A stretch of DNA of 64,000 nucleotides from assembly GCA_937942435.1 (NCBI GenBank), contig CALDEM010000016.1, forward strand, positions 62,001 to 126,000. The letters run 5' to 3'. The stretch is from an uncultured Saprospiraceae bacterium (GTDB lineage Bacteria; Bacteroidota; Bacteroidia; Chitinophagales; Saprospiraceae). Under the pieces are notes generated by a model that made no database searches, was not told the DNA's origin, and worked only from the letters and a program-made list of their open reading frames with translations. Of the stretch, positions 20,392 through 29,686 are shown in pieces (positions within the stretch are counted from its first letter, which is position 1; every line of letters begins with the position of its first letter). Both the position numbers and the translations under genes were made by a program.

Positions 20392-20841
20392 TCAAAACAT
20401 CTTTCTGACAAAGATGATAATAGGAGCAACTTGTATGGTTATCACACAGGTTAGTACCACAACTATAATAGCGACACTTTCCCTCACGTCTTTATCAAAT
20501 GATATGTAATCTGCTTGCTTATCGAACGAGCCATAAAGCTTTGAAAAGATAAGAATCAATAGACCAAGTATTGTTGTCCAATAATGAATCATGACTATTG
20601 CTATATCGATATTGTCATAGCGATGGCGCAAGGCAATTAGATAGAGAGCCGAACTAAATAAAAAAAGTAATGATATCAGTAAAAAAACATGACCGTAACT
20701 AATTATGACATATGTGTCATGCATCTGTATGTCAATTGCATACGATGAAAAAGTAAGGCTTATTACGATGCCTATGATGATTAATATCAATGCTGTCTTC
20801 CAAAATAATGAAAGTATAATGGGCTTCTTTGGAGATGGCAT
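20392..20841 (-). CDS. Small four-helix membrane protein with haem-copper-oxidase-like motif
   Basis: A 149-residue protein with four predicted helices (about 12-35, 48-70, 79-102 and 120-147). Before helix 2 it reads MHDTYVIISYGHVFLL (40-55), which resembles the HDTYFVVAHFHYVL segment of cytochrome oxidase subunit I, keeping His41 and His51. The protein is far too short to be an oxidase subunit. It may be a relic of that fold or a small haem or quinone membrane protein; neither is shown. It converges on the flavin reductase and diverges from the TPR gene. Confidence 0.7.
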   Translation of the reverse strand: MPSPKKPIILSLFWKTALILIIIGIVISLTFSSYAIDIQMHDTYVIISYGHVFLLISLLFLFSSALYLIALRHRYDNIDIAIVMIHYWTTILGLLILIFSKLYGSFDKQADYISFDKDVRESVAIIVVVLTCVITIQVAPIIIFVRKMF

Positions 20842-22167: not shown

Positions 22168-23151
22168 CTACCAGTTTAAAATCCTCGCAAACATAAGCGG
22201 TGCCACAATCGTGGCATCTGATTCTATGACAAATTTTGGAGTCTCTGGAAGTAATTTCCCCCATGTAATTTTTTCATTGGGTACGGCACCAGAGTATGAT
22301 CCATAACTTGTAGTAGAATCACTAATCTGGCAGAAATAAGACCAAACGGGTGAATTAGCCATCTCAAGGTCTTGTTCAATCAAGGGCACTACACAAATAG
22401 GAAAGTCACCCGCAATCCCACCTCCGATTTGGAAAAACCCAACTTGAGTATCAGCACTGGTTTTTTGATACCATTCAATTAGGTTGATCATATATTCAAT
22501 CCCATTCTTCACTATAGAAGCGTCAATCCTCTTCTTAACACAATGAGCCGCGAAGATATTCCCACATGTAGAATCTTCCCATCCAGGCACTAGTATCGGA
22601 ATGTTGTTTTCATATGCTGCCAAAACCCAACTATCCTTTGGATCTATTTGATAGTCTTTTTTCAACTCACCTTTTTCTAATATTTTGTAGATATACTCAT
22701 GGGGGAAATATCTTTTATTTGATTCACTGGCTTCATCCCAAACATCTAAAAGGTGATTTTCTAACGATCTCATTGCTTCTGACTCCGGAATGCATGTATC
22801 GGTTACTCTATTGAGATTGTTATCTAAAAGATCCTTTTCATCATCAGGACTTAAATCTCTATAGTCGGGGATCAACTTGTAGTGATTATGAGCGACGAGG
22901 TTAAATATGTCTTCTTCCAAATTAGCACCTGTGCAAGTGATGATATGAACTTTATCTTGCCTAATCATTTCTGCAAGTGACTTTCCAAGTTCAGCAGTAC
23001 TCATAGCCCCAGCTAGAGTAACCATCATTTTATGTCCGCGATCTAATTGATGTGCATATTCATCTGCAGCTCTTACTAATGTAGCAGCATTAAAATGAAG
23101 AAAGTGCTGATCTAAATATTTTGATATAGGACCTTTCATAATAACTTTCAA
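22168..23151 (-). CDS. Deoxyhypusine-synthase-like enzyme (probable homospermidine synthase)
   Basis: A 327-residue DHS-family protein. The NAD-site TCTGANLEEDIFN (about 92-104) and the active Lys299 in ITWGK, with the following ESDATIVAPLMFA, match eukaryotic deoxyhypusine synthase, whose Lys forms the aminobutyl imine. Bacteria lack eIF5A, so the acceptor must differ. Bacterial relatives make homospermidine by moving the aminobutyl group from spermidine to putrescine, and homospermidine is a known major polyamine in many Bacteroidota. It overlaps the agmatinase gene by 4 bases (ATGA), giving arginine decarboxylase, agmatinase and DHS-like in one unit. An unknown protein acceptor cannot be excluded. 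Confidence 0.9.
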   Translation of the reverse strand: MKVIMKGPISKYLDQHFLHFNAATLVRAADEYAHQLDRGHKMMVTLAGAMSTAELGKSLAEMIRQDKVHIITCTGANLEEDIFNLVAHNHYKLIPDYRDLSPDDEKDLLDNNLNRVTDTCIPESEAMRSLENHLLDVWDEASESNKRYFPHEYIYKILEKGELKKDYQIDPKDSWVLAAYENNIPILVPGWEDSTCGNIFAAHCVKKRIDASIVKNGIEYMINLIEWYQKTSADTQVGFFQIGGGIAGDFPICVVPLIEQDLEMANSPVWSYFCQISDSTTSYGSYSGAVPNEKITWGKLLPETPKFVIESDATIVAPLMFARILNW

Positions 23152-24008
23152 CTTTGCTTTTTCAAAGGCTTAAACTTATAACTTAACATTTTATAATATA
23201 GTTTAGCCGCTAAAAATTGAGGATGAGACAAACCAGAAATAGGACAAAGCTCAACAATATCGAAGCCAACAACATTTGTCTCATTGAAAACCTTTCGTAA
23301 GAACGTTAATGTTTCGTACCACTTTAAGCCACCAGGTTCTGGAGTTCCCGTAGCTGGCATAATTGATGGATCAAATGCGTCTAAATCAAAAGTGATGTAC
23401 ACATGGTCTGTTAGTTGATTGATCACATTGTTTATCCAGTTCTCGTTTTGAAGTTGATCATGGGCATAATGAACTTTTTGCAGATCCATCACCTTCTTTT
23501 CTTCAGCATCCATGCTTCTAATACCGACTTGAATCAAATTGCATGTTTGACTGGCGTTATACATGGCACAAGCATGATTAAATTTTGATCCGTTATAAGT
23601 TGACCGCAGATCAGCATGTGCATCAATATGTAAGACTGTCAACTTGCCAAAATGCTCTCGAAAAGCCTTAATGATACCTATACTAATAGAATGTTCACCT
23701 CCAAAAAATGTTAGAAACTTGTTCGTTTGTAACAACTGAGCGGTGTTATTATAAACTTGATGATACATATCTTCTGGACTTTCAAAATAGGATAGTTCAT
23801 CATCGAGATAGATTCCGTGTTTGAAGACTTCAGAATCCGTTTCAATATCATACAACTCCATATTGTTAGATGCCTCTAAGAAGGCTGGAAATGCTTTATC
23901 AGAACCTTTACCCCAAGTACTCGTACCATCATAGGCAATGGATTTTAATAAGATTTTAGCCGACTCTTTTTGGGCATAAGTTGAATCTATATTGGCAAAA
24001 GTCTTCAT
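23148..24008 (-). CDS. speB: Agmatinase (ureohydrolase family)
   Basis: A 286-residue arginase/agmatinase fold protein with all Mn ligands: GGEHS (His), DAHADLR (Asp, His, Asp) and TFDLDAFDPS (two Asp). It hydrolyses agmatine to putrescine and urea. Agmatinase is chosen over arginase because arginine decarboxylase lies 12 bases upstream in the same operon. The C-terminal ISGLSHPQFLAAKLYYKML is usual. The downstream DHS-like gene starts within its stop. Confidence 0.93.
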   Translation of the reverse strand: MKTFANIDSTYAQKESAKILLKSIAYDGTSTWGKGSDKAFPAFLEASNNMELYDIETDSEVFKHGIYLDDELSYFESPEDMYHQVYNNTAQLLQTNKFLTFFGGEHSISIGIIKAFREHFGKLTVLHIDAHADLRSTYNGSKFNHACAMYNASQTCNLIQVGIRSMDAEEKKVMDLQKVHYAHDQLQNENWINNVINQLTDHVYITFDLDAFDPSIMPATGTPEPGGLKWYETLTFLRKVFNETNVVGFDIVELCPISGLSHPQFLAAKLYYKMLSYKFKPLKKQS

Positions 24009-24020
24009 TGATTCATTTAT

Positions 24021-25442
24021 CTAAACATAACCCAATATTGCCAAAGGGTGTAATAAGTCATCGTTGAGATCTATCAATTTTTCATTCAACTCATCATTTT
24101 TAGCTCTATCTACAAACAATATTTTATGTGATGGTAACAGGCAATGGTTTACACCTCCAATCCCAGAAAGTGAATCTTGGTAAGCACCAGTATGTATAAA
24201 GGCTACATAAAGCCTGTCAATTTTATCAGACAAATATGGCATCATTAATGGTTCTCCATGCGTAGATGAATTATAAAAATCTGCCCCATCACATGTTAGA
24301 CCTCCTAAAATGACTTCTTTGTAACTACTCCCCCATAAGTTTAATGGGAGAACAATATATTGTTGCTTATTTGCCCAGACATCTGGCAATAAGTTGATTA
24401 TACTATTATCCAACATATACCAACTTTCACTATCATCTTGTGTTTTCTCTTCCAACACCGAATATATAGTGGTACATGATTCGCCAACTGTGTACTTTCC
24501 AAATTCTGAATAAAGATTGGGTAACAATACATTGTTTTTATTACAACCCAATTTAATTGTTGACAATATTTTTCTAATGAGTAGATCGTAATCATTGCTG
24601 CCTGTCAAAGATTGATTAATAGGCATCCCTCCACCAATATTCAATGAATCTAACTCTTCAAAAGAAGGCTTTAGAAAAGTATACAATTCTATAACTTTTT
24701 TTAATTGATCTATGTACACTCCTTTATCATCTATACCAGCATCCACGTAGAAGTGTACCATTTTAAGCGTTAAACAGCTCTGACTTTGGATGATTGGAAC
24801 TAACTTATTGACTACATTTTCTCTAGTCATTCCTAACCTTGAGGAATGCGGATATTTACCCTTTGGATTATAGTGAGATACTCTTATGCCAACGTCGCAA
24901 TTCATATTTCTCTTCTCCAGAAGTAGGCATATTATATTCACTTCAGATAGAGAGTCGATTACAACAATTATCTTATTATCAATTAAGCTCTTTAACTCCA
25001 GAATTTTCAACAGATACTCTTGGGTTTTATAACCGTTGTGAATGATTTGTATATCAGGGTTTAGTTCTTGTCTATTAGCTAGCTGTATTATTAACTCTAC
25101 CTCGTATGCCGATGAAGTCTCCAAGTGAGCATTTTCTTTCACGGCTTTAGAAACAACATCATATAGGTGGCAACTCTTAATGCAGTAACAGTAATTATAA
25201 TCCCGATTATAATTCAGTTTCTCCATTGCTTTTTTAAAAATAACACGAGCAGCTCTGATCTTTTGAGAGATGCTTGGCAAGTAATACATCCTTAGTGGTG
25301 TCCCATATTTTTTCACTAAAGGAATAAGTGGAACCCCATGAAAACTAAAGCAGCCCTTCTCATATTCAACATTATGAATGGGAAGTGCGGTTTTTGAAAT
25401 AAAATATTCATGAAAGGTATTCGGCATTAGTTTATAGTTCAA
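24021..25442 (-). CDS. speA: Arginine decarboxylase (fold III PLP enzyme)
   Basis: A 473-residue PLP decarboxylase, shorter than E. coli SpeA (658) and like the compact Bacteroidota form. Lys89 (YCIKSCH) is the PLP lysine, NIGGGMP is the glycine loop, SEFGKYTVGES the phosphate-side segment and GGLTCDGADFY the catalytic-Cys region. It converts arginine to agmatine. Codon use is notably AT-rich. Spacing to agmatinase is 12 bases and to the upstream spermidine synthase 60 bases. A different basic substrate (ornithine or lysine) is possible but the agmatinase next door argues for arginine. Confidence 0.92.
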   Translation of the reverse strand: MNYKLMPNTFHEYFISKTALPIHNVEYEKGCFSFHGVPLIPLVKKYGTPLRMYYLPSISQKIRAARVIFKKAMEKLNYNRDYNYCYCIKSCHLYDVVSKAVKENAHLETSSAYEVELIIQLANRQELNPDIQIIHNGYKTQEYLLKILELKSLIDNKIIVVIDSLSEVNIICLLLEKRNMNCDVGIRVSHYNPKGKYPHSSRLGMTRENVVNKLVPIIQSQSCLTLKMVHFYVDAGIDDKGVYIDQLKKVIELYTFLKPSFEELDSLNIGGGMPINQSLTGSNDYDLLIRKILSTIKLGCNKNNVLLPNLYSEFGKYTVGESCTTIYSVLEEKTQDDSESWYMLDNSIINLLPDVWANKQQYIVLPLNLWGSSYKEVILGGLTCDGADFYNSSTHGEPLMMPYLSDKIDRLYVAFIHTGAYQDSLSGIGGVNHCLLPSHKILFVDRAKNDELNEKLIDLNDDLLHPLAILGYV

Positions 25443-25502
25443 TTGTCTTATAGATAAAAGTTATGCCGATATCATGATTAAAGCTGTCTTAATTTGATTT
25501 TG

Positions 25503-27011
25503 CTAATTTAATACATGTTTGAATCTCTCATAATCCTCTAAGAAATAATTAAGGATAACAGGGTTATCCAATGTGTTAATCTTAGTATCATCAATTAGGA
25601 CATCCTTTGGCAAGCTAAAGTTGTTAATCAACGTTAAGGAATCTAAATATTTTAAGCCTTTAACCAAATTATCGGCATCAGGTGTCTTGTCTTTAGAATG
25701 GATTATAAACCCCCAATCACCAAAGGATGGTATATATACATGATAAGTCAGTAGTTCACCATCAAAAACATCATCCATCGTGTTGTAAATACAGCTGAAG
25801 ACACTGTTGCTTGTATTAATATCACCGGATTGTGTAATAAAAACCCCATCTTCAGAAAGACATCTTTTTACGTAAAAGAAGAATTGTTTACTATATAGTC
25901 TTGCTAGTGATTGGTTGTTAGGGTCAGGAAGGTCGGCTATAATAATATCATAGCGATCTGTTGTCGAATGCATATACGAGAAAGCATCTGCTGCTATCAT
26001 ATTGACTCTTGGGTCAAATGGTGCTAATTCATTGATAGCTGAGATATCAATGTGTTCCATTGCAATTTTGAAAATTGTAGAGTCTATATCAACAATATCG
26101 ATCTGCTTGACACCTGGATATTTTACAATCTCTCGAGTTGCCAAGTTTTCTCCACCCCCTAAGACTAGTACTTTTTCAATTTTATTTGTTAACGAAAACG
26201 GTACATGCACGAGGGATTCGTGGTATCTGTGTTCATCAGAAGATGCAAACTGTATAACACGATTAATAAACAATTTTACTTGCTCTCCTTTTTTGGTTAT
26301 TACAATCTTTTGATAAGGACTTTGCTCGTTAACAATAATGGGTGCTTTATATATTCGTTCTTCCCAAATGTTCAATAAATAGCCTCCCGAAAAAACAATT
26401 GTTAATGTTAAAAAAAGAGTCGTGAGTCCAAATATTATACTTCTCTTTTCATTCTTAAAAAAGACAGCATTGACTATTAGTCCTAATAAGATATTGACAA
26501 TGCCGAATGAAAGTGAGGAGTAAAATAGCCCAACAAAAGGCAGCAATATAAAAGGGAACAAAAGTGTAGCGACTAACCCGCCTACATAGTCTAATGATAA
26601 GACATTTGACAAATTATTGGCTACATCCTTATCACGAAAAGAAAAGGTCAAAAGTGGCACCTCTGTACCGGTCAAAAAACCAATGACGAATATTAAACCA
26701 ATACAAATAAGCTGGAATGAAGATATGCTCACATAAGTAAATAGAAAGTAAAGTATCGGCACCGAAAGGCCACCAATAAACCCTAAAATGTACTCAATGA
26801 AAATAAAGTTCTTAAGTGAATTTAGCGCAAGTTTCTTGGAGAAATATGCCCCTACGCCCATAGCAAATAGGTAGATTCCTATAATAATGGAGAACTGACG
26901 CACTCCATCACCCAAAAAATAAGTAGCAGTAGTACTTATGAGTAATTCATAAATAATAGAGCAAAGACCTGCTATGAATACAGCAGATGATAAAATTGCC
27001 CTGTTTTTCAT
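25503..27011 (-). CDS. speE: Membrane-fused spermidine synthase (aminopropyltransferase)
   Basis: A 502-residue fusion: seven or so transmembrane helices in residues 1-215, then a soluble aminopropyltransferase domain. In that domain, RYHESLVHVP is the substrate gate, LGGGENLATREI (about 283-294) the decarboxy-AdoMet loop, DIVDID the nucleotide-ribose acid and IIADLPDP (about 357-364) the catalytic-Asp strand. The usual GGGDG is GGGEN here, a change in the AdoMet loop. The domain transfers aminopropyl to putrescine. Embedding it in the membrane suggests delivery or sensing at the inner membrane (inference). It heads the speE, speA, speB, DHS-like minus unit and diverges by 38 bases from the lipoprotein gene. 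Confidence 0.92.
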   Translation of the reverse strand: MKNRAILSSAVFIAGLCSIIYELLISTTATYFLGDGVRQFSIIIGIYLFAMGVGAYFSKKLALNSLKNFIFIEYILGFIGGLSVPILYFLFTYVSISSFQLICIGLIFVIGFLTGTEVPLLTFSFRDKDVANNLSNVLSLDYVGGLVATLLFPFILLPFVGLFYSSLSFGIVNILLGLIVNAVFFKNEKRSIIFGLTTLFLTLTIVFSGGYLLNIWEERIYKAPIIVNEQSPYQKIVITKKGEQVKLFINRVIQFASSDEHRYHESLVHVPFSLTNKIEKVLVLGGGENLATREIVKYPGVKQIDIVDIDSTIFKIAMEHIDISAINELAPFDPRVNMIAADAFSYMHSTTDRYDIIIADLPDPNNQSLARLYSKQFFFYVKRCLSEDGVFITQSGDINTSNSVFSCIYNTMDDVFDGELLTYHVYIPSFGDWGFIIHSKDKTPDADNLVKGLKYLDSLTLINNFSLPKDVLIDDTKINTLDNPVILNYFLEDYERFKHVLN

Positions 27012-27034
27012 GTATTTTTTCTATTTTGGTGGTT

Positions 27035-27042
27035 CAAATGTA
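27035..27042 (-). promoter_or_regulatory. Candidate -7 element for the speE operon
   Basis: On the minus strand this reads TACATTTG, a full match to TAnnTTTG, 23 bases before the speE ATG. The spacer to the divergent lipoprotein gene is only 38 bases, so the two promoters must overlap and the sets of genes are probably co-regulated (inference). Confidence 0.4.
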
Positions 27043-27049
27043 AAATTTT

Positions 27050-27601
27050 ATGAAAGTATATAAGAAAAATGAAAGCTTTTATGGAAAGGGAGCATTAACA
27101 GCTGCTGTTTTCTGCACTTTTCTACTCTTCCAGGCATGTTCAAGTGATGAGCCCAGACTGAAAGATGCCAGTGAACAAACTGTGTACATAACAACCAAAG
27201 GTGTTGAAGCTTTAGTAGAGGAAGTTGAGCCAGGTGAAATATTCAAAATTAAAGATGAAAATATACTTGATAGCAAAGAGGCTTCAAGGGCAATAGTATA
27301 CAATTTAGATCAATCCATTGATACTGTGTCGATGGCGGCATTGCGTCAAGATCCTGCAGATCCTCGAAGATCAGCATTGAGATCTACTTTGATGGGAGGT
27401 CTTGCTTTTGCCTATCTAACAAATAGATCAGGAGCTTTAAGTCCCAAAAGTGGTAGCTATGTAAATAGCAAGGCTTATAACAAGTCAAACTCAATGACTT
27501 CTTCACTTAGAAGTAGTGCTACACCAAGAAAAGTAAGTATACCGGGAAAATCTTCAAGAGGTTACGGAGCAGGTAAATCTTTTAGATCATTTGGAGGATA
27601 A
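27050..27601 (+). CDS. UPF0323/YgiB-like lipoprotein
   Basis: A 183-residue lipoprotein (lipobox FQAC near residue 30). The mature part starts with a beta-rich acidic domain (TVYITTKGVEALVEEVEPGE), then a hydrophobic glycine segment (STLMGGLAFAYLTNRS) and a Ser/Lys/Gly/Arg-rich low-complexity tail ending in SRGYGAGKSFRSFGG. The plan resembles UPF0323 and DUF1190 (YgiB) proteins, which sit next to glutathionylspermidine-synthase-like genes in other bacteria (E. coli ygiB-ygiC). The same neighbour is present here, overlapping its last codons. Its role is unknown; it may present or anchor the ligase product at the envelope (inference). Confidence 0.8.
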   Translation: MKVYKKNESFYGKGALTAAVFCTFLLFQACSSDEPRLKDASEQTVYITTKGVEALVEEVEPGEIFKIKDENILDSKEASRAIVYNLDQSIDTVSMAALRQDPADPRRSALRSTLMGGLAFAYLTNRSGALSPKSGSYVNSKAYNKSNSMTSSLRSSATPRKVSIPGKSSRGYGAGKSFRSFGG

Positions 27602-28736
27602 TAGATTTTTAGAGTTAACACCGGTATTTGTTAAAAAGAACCCTGAGTTTTTAGAGTGGTTCTTAAGTCAAGAGGAATACTTAGTTGATGAAATGATTTC
27701 TTTCAAATGGGAAGAAGTTGATTTCTTATCAAATAAGGCAGTTGAGGCATTTAATATCTTTTCTGAAGCTACGGATCATATCATCAGTAAAGGCAATCTT
27801 GATTATTTAGAGATACCCAAGCCCTTTCAAAAGGTTATTGAACATGCTTGGCATCACAGAGATAGAAATCCTTTTTTTCTTGGTCGTTTTGATTTCTCAG
27901 GCAGTCTCGATACACCTCCTGTAAAAGTAATAGAGTTCAATGCTGACACATGTACTATGTTGCCCGAAACCTTGTTTTGGCAACCGCTACAGCTTAAACA
28001 TGCTGGTAAGAGAAAGTCTTTTAATACCTTAAACTGGGATATTAAAAATGCATTTGAAAGGATTTCTAATCATAAAAATGAAAAGCAGGTAGTACTTGCT
28101 TCTTCATTAGGCTTTGAAGAAGACAAATTAAACGTGCAGGCGATAGCATCAATAGTAGAAGATGATTTCTTTGTTTGTTATAGAGACCTACAAGACGTCA
28201 TCTTCTCTGAAGACGGTGTATTTATTGAAGAAGGTGATGGATATGTGCAAGTGGATGTAATGCTCAAGCTATTCCCTTGGGATTGGATCTATACTGAAGA
28301 AACCGAACTCAGTGGTCTGCTTACTAATCTTATCTTAAATGAGAAAGTTGTTGTTTTGAACCCTCCATATACCAGCATTTGGCAAAACAAAATGTTTTTG
28401 AACTACATAACAGAACATTTCCCTAACAATGTTATTGCCAAATCTTACTCAACAAAGCCCCCTCACTTAGAGAAGCATGTTGTCAAGTCATCTTTTGGAC
28501 GTCTGGGAGAAGAGGTAGAGATTGTTGAGAAAGGGGAAGAAGCAGAACTGAACTTTCAACCTAAAACATATCAAGAATATCTTCGCCTACCTCAGGATGA
28601 TGAAGGTAATTATTATCAATTGGGGATGCTCTATACACATCGGCCTTCAGCTTTAAATATCCGATGTAGTAGCGAAGCCGTTATTAACGATGACTGTGAG
28701 TTTTATTGTCACTTTATAGAGGATTCCAGATCTTGA
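27591..28736 (+). CDS. Glutathionylspermidine-synthase-like ATP-grasp ligase (YgiC type)
   Basis: A 381-residue protein matching the synthetase half of GspS without the amidase half, as in YgiC/YjfC. EFNADTCTMLPE (about 115-126), LKLFPWDW (225-232), LNPPYTSIWQNK and KSSFGRLGEEV (from about 299) align with the GspS ATP and Mg sites. GspS joins glutathione to spermidine; YgiC-type proteins have no settled substrate. It begins with TTG at 27591, inside the end of the lipoprotein gene (11-base overlap), so translation is coupled. Its 3' end overlaps the convergent speD by 28 bases. With polyamine genes on both sides, a polyamine is the likely amine substrate (inference). Confidence 0.9.
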   Translation: MEDNRFLELTPVFVKKNPEFLEWFLSQEEYLVDEMISFKWEEVDFLSNKAVEAFNIFSEATDHIISKGNLDYLEIPKPFQKVIEHAWHHRDRNPFFLGRFDFSGSLDTPPVKVIEFNADTCTMLPETLFWQPLQLKHAGKRKSFNTLNWDIKNAFERISNHKNEKQVVLASSLGFEEDKLNVQAIASIVEDDFFVCYRDLQDVIFSEDGVFIEEGDGYVQVDVMLKLFPWDWIYTEETELSGLLTNLILNEKVVVLNPPYTSIWQNKMFLNYITEHFPNNVIAKSYSTKPPHLEKHVVKSSFGRLGEEVEIVEKGEEAELNFQPKTYQEYLRLPQDDEGNYYQLGMLYTHRPSALNIRCSSEAVINDDCEFYCHFIEDSRS

Positions 28737-29107
28737 CTAATGTCTTCTCGAGCACTGTCCTGAAGTACTCCTCTTTTTATAATTCTAAGATTGACATCAT
28801 CACTTTGCCAAAGTGCCTTTATCTCTTGAGAGATCAGGTCATAGTCGACCGCCACACAAGAAAACAAGTCAAGGCCCATGTATCCGTGCTCCGGCCAAGT
28901 ATGGATACTAAAGTGAGATTCTGATAATAGATAAACACCGGTAACGCCAACTGGATCAAATTGCTTATAACTCTCTGAAACTATATCTAAGGGCGTCAAT
29001 CTCAATATACGCTCCATAATAGGGCGAATAGTATCGACCCATTCAATTCTATGGGGATCTATGTTGCGTACATCCCACACGTAGTGAACACCAATAGTGT
29101 TTTGCAT
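28709..29107 (-). CDS. speD: S-adenosylmethionine decarboxylase proenzyme SpeD
   Basis: A 132-residue class 1B AdoMet decarboxylase. Self-cleavage between Glu63 and Ser64 in LSESHFSIHTWPE would make the pyruvoyl group; His69 and Cys84 (LFSC) are the conserved acid and processing residues. It supplies decarboxylated AdoMet to the spermidine synthase. The C-terminus carries a short extension (SAREDISQDLESS) overlapping the ligase gene. It follows the membrane-anchored hypothetical gene by 3 bases. Confidence 0.95.
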   Translation of the reverse strand: MQNTIGVHYVWDVRNIDPHRIEWVDTIRPIMERILRLTPLDIVSESYKQFDPVGVTGVYLLSESHFSIHTWPEHGYMGLDLFSCVAVDYDLISQEIKALWQSDDVNLRIIKRGVLQDSAREDISQDLESSIK

Positions 29108-29110
29108 TTC

Positions 29111-29686
29111 TTATCCTGGCTCTTCGGTTCCTGCCGCTTCAGCTGCTTCTGCTTCAAGTTGTTCCATTAACATGGTCTTGAACTCATTAGGATCCATGAG
29201 CTTTTTAAGAACGACGTAATCTTCATCTTCATCAGCTTGAATTGTTTCAGGCATACCTTCCCTTGCCCCAACATCCCATGTAATAGGATTAATCAAGCCT
29301 TTAACAACTGAATAACGGCCTTCAAGTTCCATCCCAAGATACTCCACTTTTTGATCTGGGAAGGCCTGCATATATGATAATTGTGCCATCAGATCTCCAT
29401 AAACATGCTCATTGATTAGATAGGATGTTTCTGTTGGGTTTAAGAAGTAAGCTTTGTCTTGAAAATCAAATACGCGCTCTGAAGCATTCTCAAGTCTTAT
29501 TGTTCTTTCGCCTTTTCCCATTTCCACCCATACAACCTCATTTGCTGGTACTTCAACAGTCAATTCGTCAACTGAAACCGTAATTGGCTGAGAAGAGGGA
29601 TTATCAATAACCAAATCAACCATAGTTGGTTGTAACATGGTATACAATACAAATAGTCCAATTGCCCCGTATATTATGTACTTCAT
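29111..29686 (-). CDS. Unknown membrane-anchored protein cotranscribed with speD
   Basis: A 191-residue protein with one N-terminal hydrophobic helix (IIYGAIGLFVLYTML) and no lipobox. A beta-rich domain follows: VDLVIDNPSSQPITVSVD then VPANEVVWVEMGKGERTI, a pattern of an immunoglobulin-like or PEGA-like sandwich. It then has KVEYLGMELEGRYSVVKGLINP and an acidic tail of Glu/Ala repeats. I do not recognise the family. The 3-base spacing to speD, and its place between two polyamine units, tie it to polyamine metabolism. It could bind a polyamine or its conjugate with the acidic tail (inference). Confidence 0.8.
   Translation of the reverse strand: MKYIIYGAIGLFVLYTMLQPTMVDLVIDNPSSQPITVSVDELTVEVPANEVVWVEMGKGERTIRLENASERVFDFQDKAYFLNPTETSYLINEHVYGDLMAQLSYMQAFPDQKVEYLGMELEGRYSVVKGLINPITWDVGAREGMPETIQADEDEDYVVLKKLMDPNEFKTMLMEQLEAEAAEAAGTEEPG

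Follow-up and report, generated by a model that had tools for sequence, protein, structure and literature searches.

A question raised by the 64,000-nucleotide stretch of an uncultured Saprospiraceae genome analysed here (contig CALDEM010000016.1, positions 62,001 to 126,000; hereafter the window) is whether a row of polyamine genes at positions 22168-29686 forms one pathway, and to what its ligase would attach a polyamine. The first-pass annotation of this DNA had read the eight adjacent genes as one system that makes homospermidine or spermidine and ligates it to a peptide or amino acid. An open reading frame (ORF) check and profile scans with Pfam and NCBIfam showed that all eight genes are present and that the six enzymes belong to the families it had named (Table 1). 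We found that the system consists of four of them: a GspS-fold ligase, the membrane-anchored protein encoded directly before it (the partner), an S-adenosylmethionine (AdoMet) decarboxylase (SpeD) and an aminopropyltransferase with an N-terminal membrane domain (SpeE_TM). The new observation is the C-terminal Gly-Gly of the partner, and on sequence grounds we lean towards the view that the core is a protein-modifying system in which this Gly-Gly carboxylate serves as the ligase's acceptor, giving a polyamine-tailed envelope protein.

The partner ORF was picked at each ligase locus blind to its sequence, as the longest same-strand ORF ending near the ligase start, and was then accepted or rejected by reading. 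From 106 loci (L029-L134) this yielded 87 distinct partners, 66 from named loci and 21 from family relatives. The window and Escherichia coli proteins were kept out of this count, as were four loci with no upstream ORF of at least 100 amino acids (L035, L036, L087 and L125), 13 whose upstream ORF was judged not to be a partner (L034, L039, L040, L054, L060, L061, L068, L091, L097, L101, L104, L114 and L124) and two duplicates (L110, equal to L029 from Portibacter marinus, a genus that NCBI assigns to Haliscomenobacteraceae within Saprospirales, and L117, equal to L031, titled 'Saprospiraceae bacterium'). The results showed that Gly-Gly ends 71 of the 87 partners, Gly-Ser nine and other pairs with a final Ser seven; the last residue is thus Gly or Ser in every case, and the residue at position -3 is Phe or Tyr in 69. 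The window partner itself ends in -SFGG. At any other position in the last 40 residues, Gly-Gly occurs in at most 10 of the 87 proteins, shuffled tails gave a mean of 1.9 Gly-Gly ends (maximum 8 in 2000 rounds), and six of 1005 other mechanically called ORFs of at least 150 amino acids in the named loci end in this way, one of which is a missed partner (L097). Plain low complexity of the tail is excluded by the shuffles and the positional counts. Grouped by record titles, 31 of 38 Bacteroidota partners end in Gly-Gly, as do 40 of the 49 others (mostly Campylobacterota with some Thiotrichales-type bacteria), a further eight of which end in Gly-Ser. Partners were also found farther upstream in four of the excluded loci, two of them (L097 and L114) with a Gly-Gly end.

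In the window, the ligase starts with a TTG codon inside the end of the partner gene, whose stop codon occupies 27599-27601, and the resulting 11-base overlap perhaps reflects translational coupling, as judged from the gene arrangement. By the start-codon rule, such an overlap occurs in 32 of the 87 pairs, and Gly-Gly ends 30 of these 32 partners as well as 41 of the 55 without overlap. The overlap therefore does not create the motif, and an origin of Gly-Gly as a by-product of the overlapping ligase start is excluded by these 41 partners together with the reversed gene order in Falsirhodobacter, Sulfitobacter and Paracoccus, where the partner lies downstream of the ligase and ends in Gly-Gly in all three cases. 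The two pairs of E. coli K-12 show the same end, with YgiB finishing in ...SSRSMGG and YjfM in ...SARGHWGG, each encoded directly before its ligase. Eight YgiB relatives (seven alphaproteobacterial and one from Photobacterium), hand-picked from the 30 listed of 95 plasmid-collection records, end in Gly-Gly (six), Gly-Ser (one) and Cys-Gly (one), and a YgiC/YjfC-like ligase lies in the same stretch for seven of the eight. Members of our alignments A3 and A4 were likewise chosen by hand, and the A3 row of L126 lacks the C-terminus, whose true end is -KSYGG. A C-terminal Gly-Gly, as in ubiquitin-like modifiers, is present in the window partner, for which we claim no membership in that group.

The partners share further properties. 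A lipobox-like cysteine was found in 79 of the 87 with a loose pattern; in five (L029, L118, L126, L129 and L130) the first 65 residues contain no cysteine and a hydrophobic helix takes its place, while the motif persists, and L122 also lacks a cysteine near its start, which was probably lost at a contig end. Over 90 proteins, the tail is strongly basic (882 Lys and Arg vs 71 Asp and Glu), and the part before it is acidic (603 vs 943). The alignment of Bacteroidota partners matched that of 28 partners of the Campylobacterota/Thiotrichales type (hhalign 98.8%, E 1e-16), but the link to DUF1190 (YgiB) is weak, as detailed below, and the 'UPF0323/YgiB-like lipoprotein' of the first-pass annotation is borne out only in part. 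Neither the window partner nor the protein at 29111-29686 has a Pfam match at E up to 1.

In GspS, the carboxylate of the glutathione glycine is activated and then linked to spermidine. The AlphaFold2 model of the window ligase (predicted local distance difference test score, pLDDT, 88) has YjfC (7uk6, rank 1) and YgiC (7uk8, rank 2) as its nearest structures in the Protein Data Bank (PDB), followed by GspSA. The earlier description as a GspS-like ligase without the amidase half was borne out, a strong GSP_synth match being accompanied by no amidase domain. All nine GspS residues that we take to be the ATP/Mg machinery (R316, D318, E330, N332, K498, K533, R538, Q568 and R598) are kept; across 24 aligned family ligases, R538 is replaced once and the other eight are invariant. 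On the other side, at what is presumably the glutathione site, S335, S337, C338, H339, T441 and T446 are replaced in the window ligase (changes including S335T, S337T, C338M and T441L) and also in YgiC and YjfC, not always by the same residue. The latter two are named peptide--spermidine ligases in RefSeq, apparently after Pederick 2023, which reportedly describes such an activity; we know of no established natural peptide substrate for either. YgiC is said to lack glutathionylspermidine synthase activity in one paper (PMC12506659). Since a GspS relative with a partly altered glutathione site is co-encoded with a protein bearing a free Gly-Gly end, this end is most simply taken as a candidate acceptor.

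Whether the eight genes belong together was addressed in a survey of 100 genomes of the family, 25 of which carry the ligase at E<1e-40 (27 at E<1e-10; the weak matches in G067 and G046 were scored as negative). SpeE_TM, counted at E<1e-70 (32 of 35 matches kept; the weaker ones in G003, G036 and G021 excluded), is present in 22 of the 25 ligase genomes vs 10 of the 75 others (p=1.4e-11), and SpeD in 23 vs 10 (p=8.5e-13), these and the following p-values taking no account of shared ancestry. No association was detected for the DHS-like gene (9/25 vs 20/75, p=0.45), and the protein at 29111-29686 occurs in six genomes overall (3/25 vs 3/75, p=0.16). Linkage gave a similar picture. Around 24 strong ligase relatives, where the edge of the stretch lies 0.9 to 9.5 kb from the ligase, BLAST found the partner in 20, SpeE_TM in 16, SpeD in 17, the 29111-29686 protein in one and speA, speB or DHS in none; in two of the 24 (L109 and L122), a partner ending in Gly-Gly was missed by BLAST. 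None of these seven genes was found near the two weak ligase relatives. The core of partner, ligase, SpeE_TM and SpeD is thus conserved far beyond chance across the family. A single eight-gene pathway is rejected, as the DHS trio neither co-occurs with nor is linked to the ligase and a second trio exists in the genome. The association proposed at the outset therefore stands for ligase, lipoprotein, speD and membrane-fused speE, and fails for the speA-speB-DHS trio; the protein at 29111-29686, near the ligase in so few relatives, is read as accessory.

Two side observations concern the distribution and form of this core. Searches of G083, the sole other genome covered from the genus of the host, gave no match to the ligase, to SpeE_TM, to SpeD or to DHS, so the module is variable within the genus. 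At L112 (G049:C320:10510-11697), SpeD and a second SpeE-like domain share one 466-amino-acid frame directly after the ligase, which is likely a SpeD-SpeE fusion within the module.

The mechanism that we favour would run as follows. The ligase, taken as cytoplasmic, would activate the partner's C-terminal Gly-Gly carboxylate with ATP and couple it with a polyamine through a primary amine, in the manner of GspS acting on the glycine of glutathione, yielding an envelope protein with a polyamine tail. SpeD would make decarboxylated AdoMet, and SpeE_TM would use it either in making the polyamine or in extending it by aminopropyl groups, perhaps while that polyamine is attached at the membrane; putrescine or homospermidine may come from the neighbouring speA-speB-DHS trio. 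The tail might serve to bring positive charges to the envelope, with a possible part in membrane stress. The genes, the residue pattern of the ligase, the co-occurrence in the family and the Gly-Gly motif are observations; we infer that this carboxylate is the acceptor, which amine reacts, what SpeE_TM does and what the tail is for. The chemistry has a precedent, since spermidine is attached to SUMO at its -LGG end in fission yeast, mice and humans (PMC12270671). The lipoprotein, to which envelope display of the conjugate had been ascribed, is accordingly better read as a candidate substrate.

Several findings weigh against this proposal. First, seven partners end in neither Gly-Gly nor Gly-Ser (SS three times, and HS, RS, IS and VS), and the uncounted displaced partners of L040 and L061 also end in SS. 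The deviating Bacteroidota tails are mostly from Cytophagales (L032, L037, L038, L044 and L080 besides the two uncounted ones), in which the motif is weaker. Second, no partner precedes three Sulfurimonas ligases, two of which follow a gene of the arginase family and one a gene of the deacetylase family, and the stretch around the Photobacterium DUF1190 gene showed no ligase. Third, the glutathione site appears only partly remodelled, since all 24 family ligases retain E391 of GspS and eight of them still have Ser at S337. Fourth, matches to DUF1190 came from 11 of the 25 Bacteroidota partners (best E 2.6e-4), though not from the window protein, and from three of the 28 others, no better than the unrelated SARAF family (4/28). 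Fifth, on account of the lipobox, the C-terminus of a Bacteroidota partner should be periplasmic and out of reach of ATP, unless modification precedes export. The ligase might act before the partner is exported, which the gene overlap would suit, or a glycine-rich hydrophobic segment before the tail might cross the membrane. By hydropathy, such a second membrane segment is plausible in non-Bacteroidota partners (median 1.52; 16 of 49 at or above 1.6) and not in those of Bacteroidota (median 0.59; 0 of 38). Finally, the shared ancestry behind the family counts applies here too, three of the 25 family ligase genomes have no SpeE_TM match, and the 80 loci from named genomes hold a relative of the window SpeE_TM in five and of SpeD in four. 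The last figures cover the ligase neighbourhood only, many of these loci end at contig ends and distant relatives may escape. The concern that ligase homologues occur without polyamine genes, raised in the first-pass annotation as a possible objection, thus applies in part. Four of the five named loci with a SpeE_TM relative are Saprospirales records, and the fifth (L059) is titled Chitinophagales; with relatives in so few named loci, the pairing of the ligase with SpeE_TM and SpeD looks like a feature of Saprospirales and near kin.

These sparse named loci also bear on a serious if unlikely alternative, in which SpeE_TM and SpeD form a separate membrane aminopropylation system (the second group of Ravi 2024; Li 2019) and merely share the ligase neighbourhood. 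Beside most ligases in the named loci, no SpeE_TM/SpeD pair was detected, and in two ligase-negative genomes (L148 and L150), SpeE_TM from another clade lies beside a DUF4178-like protein and a zinc-ribbon-like membrane protein, a context resembling one described by Ravi et al. (PMC11237479). Against this, SpeE_TM and SpeD track the ligase in the family, even in five genomes where SpeE_TM is distant or on another contig. A tree built from 27 SpeE_TM proteins, each stretch contributing one (midpoint-rooted for drawing only; the ligase-negative G045, G059, G076 and G077 omitted), placed the window protein in a ligase-associated clade (support 100/99) of 23 rows, 21 from ligase genomes and 16 linked to the ligase. 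In the other two rows (G015 and G095), the contig ends 174 and 492 bases past the SpeE_TM start, and the cut stretch of G095 holds, by eye, an ORF start resembling a helix-anchored partner. SpeE_TM of three ligase-negative genomes forms a separate group (98/96), and G057 stands alone on a long branch. Li et al. 2019 reportedly saw no spermidine synthase activity for a membrane-fused SpeE. Aminopropylation of other substrates is raised, with reference to that work, by Ravi et al. 2024 (PMC11237479). Under the favoured acceptor model, SpeE_TM may extend a protein-bound polyamine.

The original proposal, in which the ligase turns a small peptide or an amino acid into a soluble polyamine conjugate that the lipoprotein carries or displays, seems unlikely to us. 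It can draw on the GspS fold, on the polyamine genes nearby and on the peptide-spermidine ligase activity reported for YgiC/YjfC; however, several glutathione-site residues are altered, and the model leaves unexplained both the constrained last two residues of the partner and the pairing of partner and ligase across phyla. We regard as less likely again that the Gly-Gly tail acts as a signal for recognition or folding (for ligase docking, export or membrane insertion) while the ligase uses another carboxylate, such as a peptidoglycan stem peptide: a very basic tail alone could bind envelope polymers, and 16 of the 87 tails end in Ser, but the GspS fold is known to use a free glycine carboxylate, and conservation peaks at the last two residues. 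It is very improbable that the locus just supplies spermidine and homospermidine and has its neighbours by chance: each enzyme has a housekeeping relative, but the genome contains another speA-speB-DHS trio, and the ligase keeps company with partner, SpeE_TM and SpeD across the family.

The trio of the window deserves its own account. A DHS-family protein, an arginine decarboxylase and an agmatinase stand in a row, the gene content of a homospermidine trio, and a second such row lies outside the window in the same genome (G000:C16:8690-11963, locus L145). Identity between the two copies is 40% for SpeA, 63% for SpeB and 71% for DHS. Compared with the row of a relative (G070), the second copy shows 74%, 65% and 82%, and the window copy 40%, 64% and 73%, respectively, the gap being wide for SpeA, distinct for DHS and trivial for SpeB. 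Since the other copy is closer to G070, the window trio reads as a divergent second copy; it might serve the neighbouring ligase as a dedicated supply. Judged by their families, these genes would yield putrescine and homospermidine. The agmatine-homocoupling enzyme of Thermus thermophilus is said to be DHS-like. Given this precedent of agmatine homocoupling toward homospermidine (PMC10981699), more than one order of steps to homospermidine is conceivable.

As for the layout, DHS-like protein, SpeB and SpeA form a minus-strand run (22168-25442) that is followed by SpeE_TM on the same strand; the partner is divergent from SpeE_TM with 38 bases between them, and after the ligase come SpeD and the anchored protein, both on the minus strand, SpeD being convergent with the ligase and overlapping its 3' end. 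SpeE_TM is barely above the cut-off of the NCBIfam model 'fused MFS/spermidine synthase' (40.3 vs 40), and NCBIfam models match SpeA and the DHS-like protein below cut-off only. The last protein had been called an unknown membrane-anchored protein, which agrees with its AlphaFold2 model (pLDDT 86.8), an N-terminal helix and a beta-rich body, for which a fold search gave no PDB match at E<=0.001 (best E 3.8e-3, the N-terminal domain of AlgF). The flanking genes are housekeeping-like, namely a ribH-like gene upstream, by reading, and an amidohydrolase (PF01979) downstream. Farther off, a 149-amino-acid ORF on the minus strand (20392-20841) shows similarity to a portion of cytochrome oxidase subunit I, though under the Pfam cut-off (E 3.6e-7).

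Table 1 Features of the polyamine locus and of compared loci. Window positions unless a locus is given; percentages, identity to the other copy in the genome.
Feature	Position	Strand	Evidence
DHS-family protein (homospermidine-synthase-like), second copy (71%)	22168-23151	-	PF01916, 155 bits
Agmatinase SpeB, second copy (63%)	23148-24008	-	Pfam Arginase, 202 bits; TIGR01230, 228.8 vs cut-off 174.3
SpeA-like decarboxylase, divergent second copy (40%)	24021-25442	-	Pfam Orn/Arg decarboxylase N and C domains
SpeE_TM, aminopropyltransferase with N-terminal membrane domain	25503-27011	-	Spermine_synth, 138.7 bits; PRK03612, 499.1 vs 472
Membrane-anchored partner, proposed acceptor	27050-27601	+	Lipobox-like ...LLFQACSS; basic Ser/Lys/Arg-rich tail ending -KSFRSFGG
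C-terminal SFRSFGG codons of partner	27578-27598	+	Sequence; Gly-Gly codons 27593-27598
Overlap of partner end and ligase start, 11 bases	27591-27601	+	Sequence
GspS-fold (YgiC/YjfC-type) ligase, 381 amino acids, TTG start, no amidase half	27591-28736	+	GSP_synth PF03738, 200.9 bits vs 29.3
SpeD, AdoMet decarboxylase, B. subtilis type	28709-29107	-	AdoMet_dc PF02675, 85 bits; TIGR03330, 89.6 vs 75.65
Anchored beta-rich envelope protein, accessory	29111-29686	-	AlphaFold2 model
SpeE_TM with DUF4178-like neighbour	L148:4044-6028		DUF4178 over Pfam cut-off
SpeE_TM with DUF4178-like neighbour	L150:5148-7051		DUF4178 just under Pfam cut-off
Non-partner gene upstream of ligase, Sulfurimonas	L060:9005-9922		
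Non-partner gene upstream of ligase, Sulfurimonas	L068:9024-9914		
Non-partner gene upstream of ligase, Sulfurimonas	L101:5532-6530		

Overall, the co-occurrence search that the first-pass annotation had suggested supports the link of ligase to SpeE_TM and SpeD within the family and not to the 29111-29686 protein; the ligase start within the partner end, the -SFGG end and the second trio had escaped that annotation. The Gly-Gly end of each co-encoded protein offers a concrete natural-substrate candidate for YgiC and YjfC. If the acceptor model is true, bacteria would have a counterpart of ubiquitin-like diglycine conjugation that uses a polyamine, and a role could be proposed for membrane-fused spermidine synthases and their AdoMet decarboxylases. 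A wider and more tentative idea, which we hold with less than even confidence, is that bacteria of several phyla use an ATP-grasp ligase to put polyamines on the C-terminal diglycine of a dedicated membrane-anchored protein and that, in this family, SpeD and SpeE_TM lengthen the tail by aminopropyl groups in place at the membrane; membrane-fused SpeE would then gain a substrate other than putrescine, and YgiC/YjfC a natural acceptor. Among the open-licence papers listed in literature searches for an acceptor of YgiC/YjfC, no statement of such a Gly-Gly acceptor was found.

Systems holding most of this gene set are reportedly described by Pederick 2023 and Li 2019. The earlier remark that no described system has this set was too strong, as most of it is described in the accessible part of Ravi et al. 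2024 (PMC11237479), where the exact set was not found. That text covers PspA-linked clusters with membrane-fused SpeE, DUF350, a lipoprotein and DUF4178, and also clusters with a GspS-like ligase and DUF1190. Membrane-fused SpeE, AdoMet decarboxylase, GspS-like ligase and lipoprotein are common to those clusters and the window, whereas the window joins both enzyme sets in one cluster, and no Pfam match to PspA, CesT/Tir, DUF350 or DUF4178 was detected among the ten window proteins to which the scan was limited. Compared with E. coli GspSA, the window ligase has the same synthetase fold and ATP/Mg residues but no amidase half and several different glutathione-site residues. With ygiB-ygiC and yjfM-yjfC of E. 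coli, the window shares the gene pair, the amidase-less GspS-fold ligase, the S335T and S337T changes and the Gly-Gly partner end. Unlike the window, these pairs have no speD or speE beside them within the 9 kb and 6.5 kb compared, the neighbours of yjfM-yjfC being PspA-family, DUF350, DUF2170 and DUF2491 genes; and unlike YgiB and YjfM, the window partner has no Pfam family match, its relatives matching DUF1190 weakly. By analogy, the window cluster with SpeD and SpeE_TM would be a variant of the YgiB-YgiC-like pair. The proposed reaction, a polyamine placed on a C-terminal Gly-Gly carboxylate with ATP, resembles the conjugation of SUMO and ubiquitin to spermidine (PMC12270671), but eukaryotic E1 and E2 enzymes act there, whereas a bacterial ATP-grasp ligase and an anchored basic protein would do so in the window.

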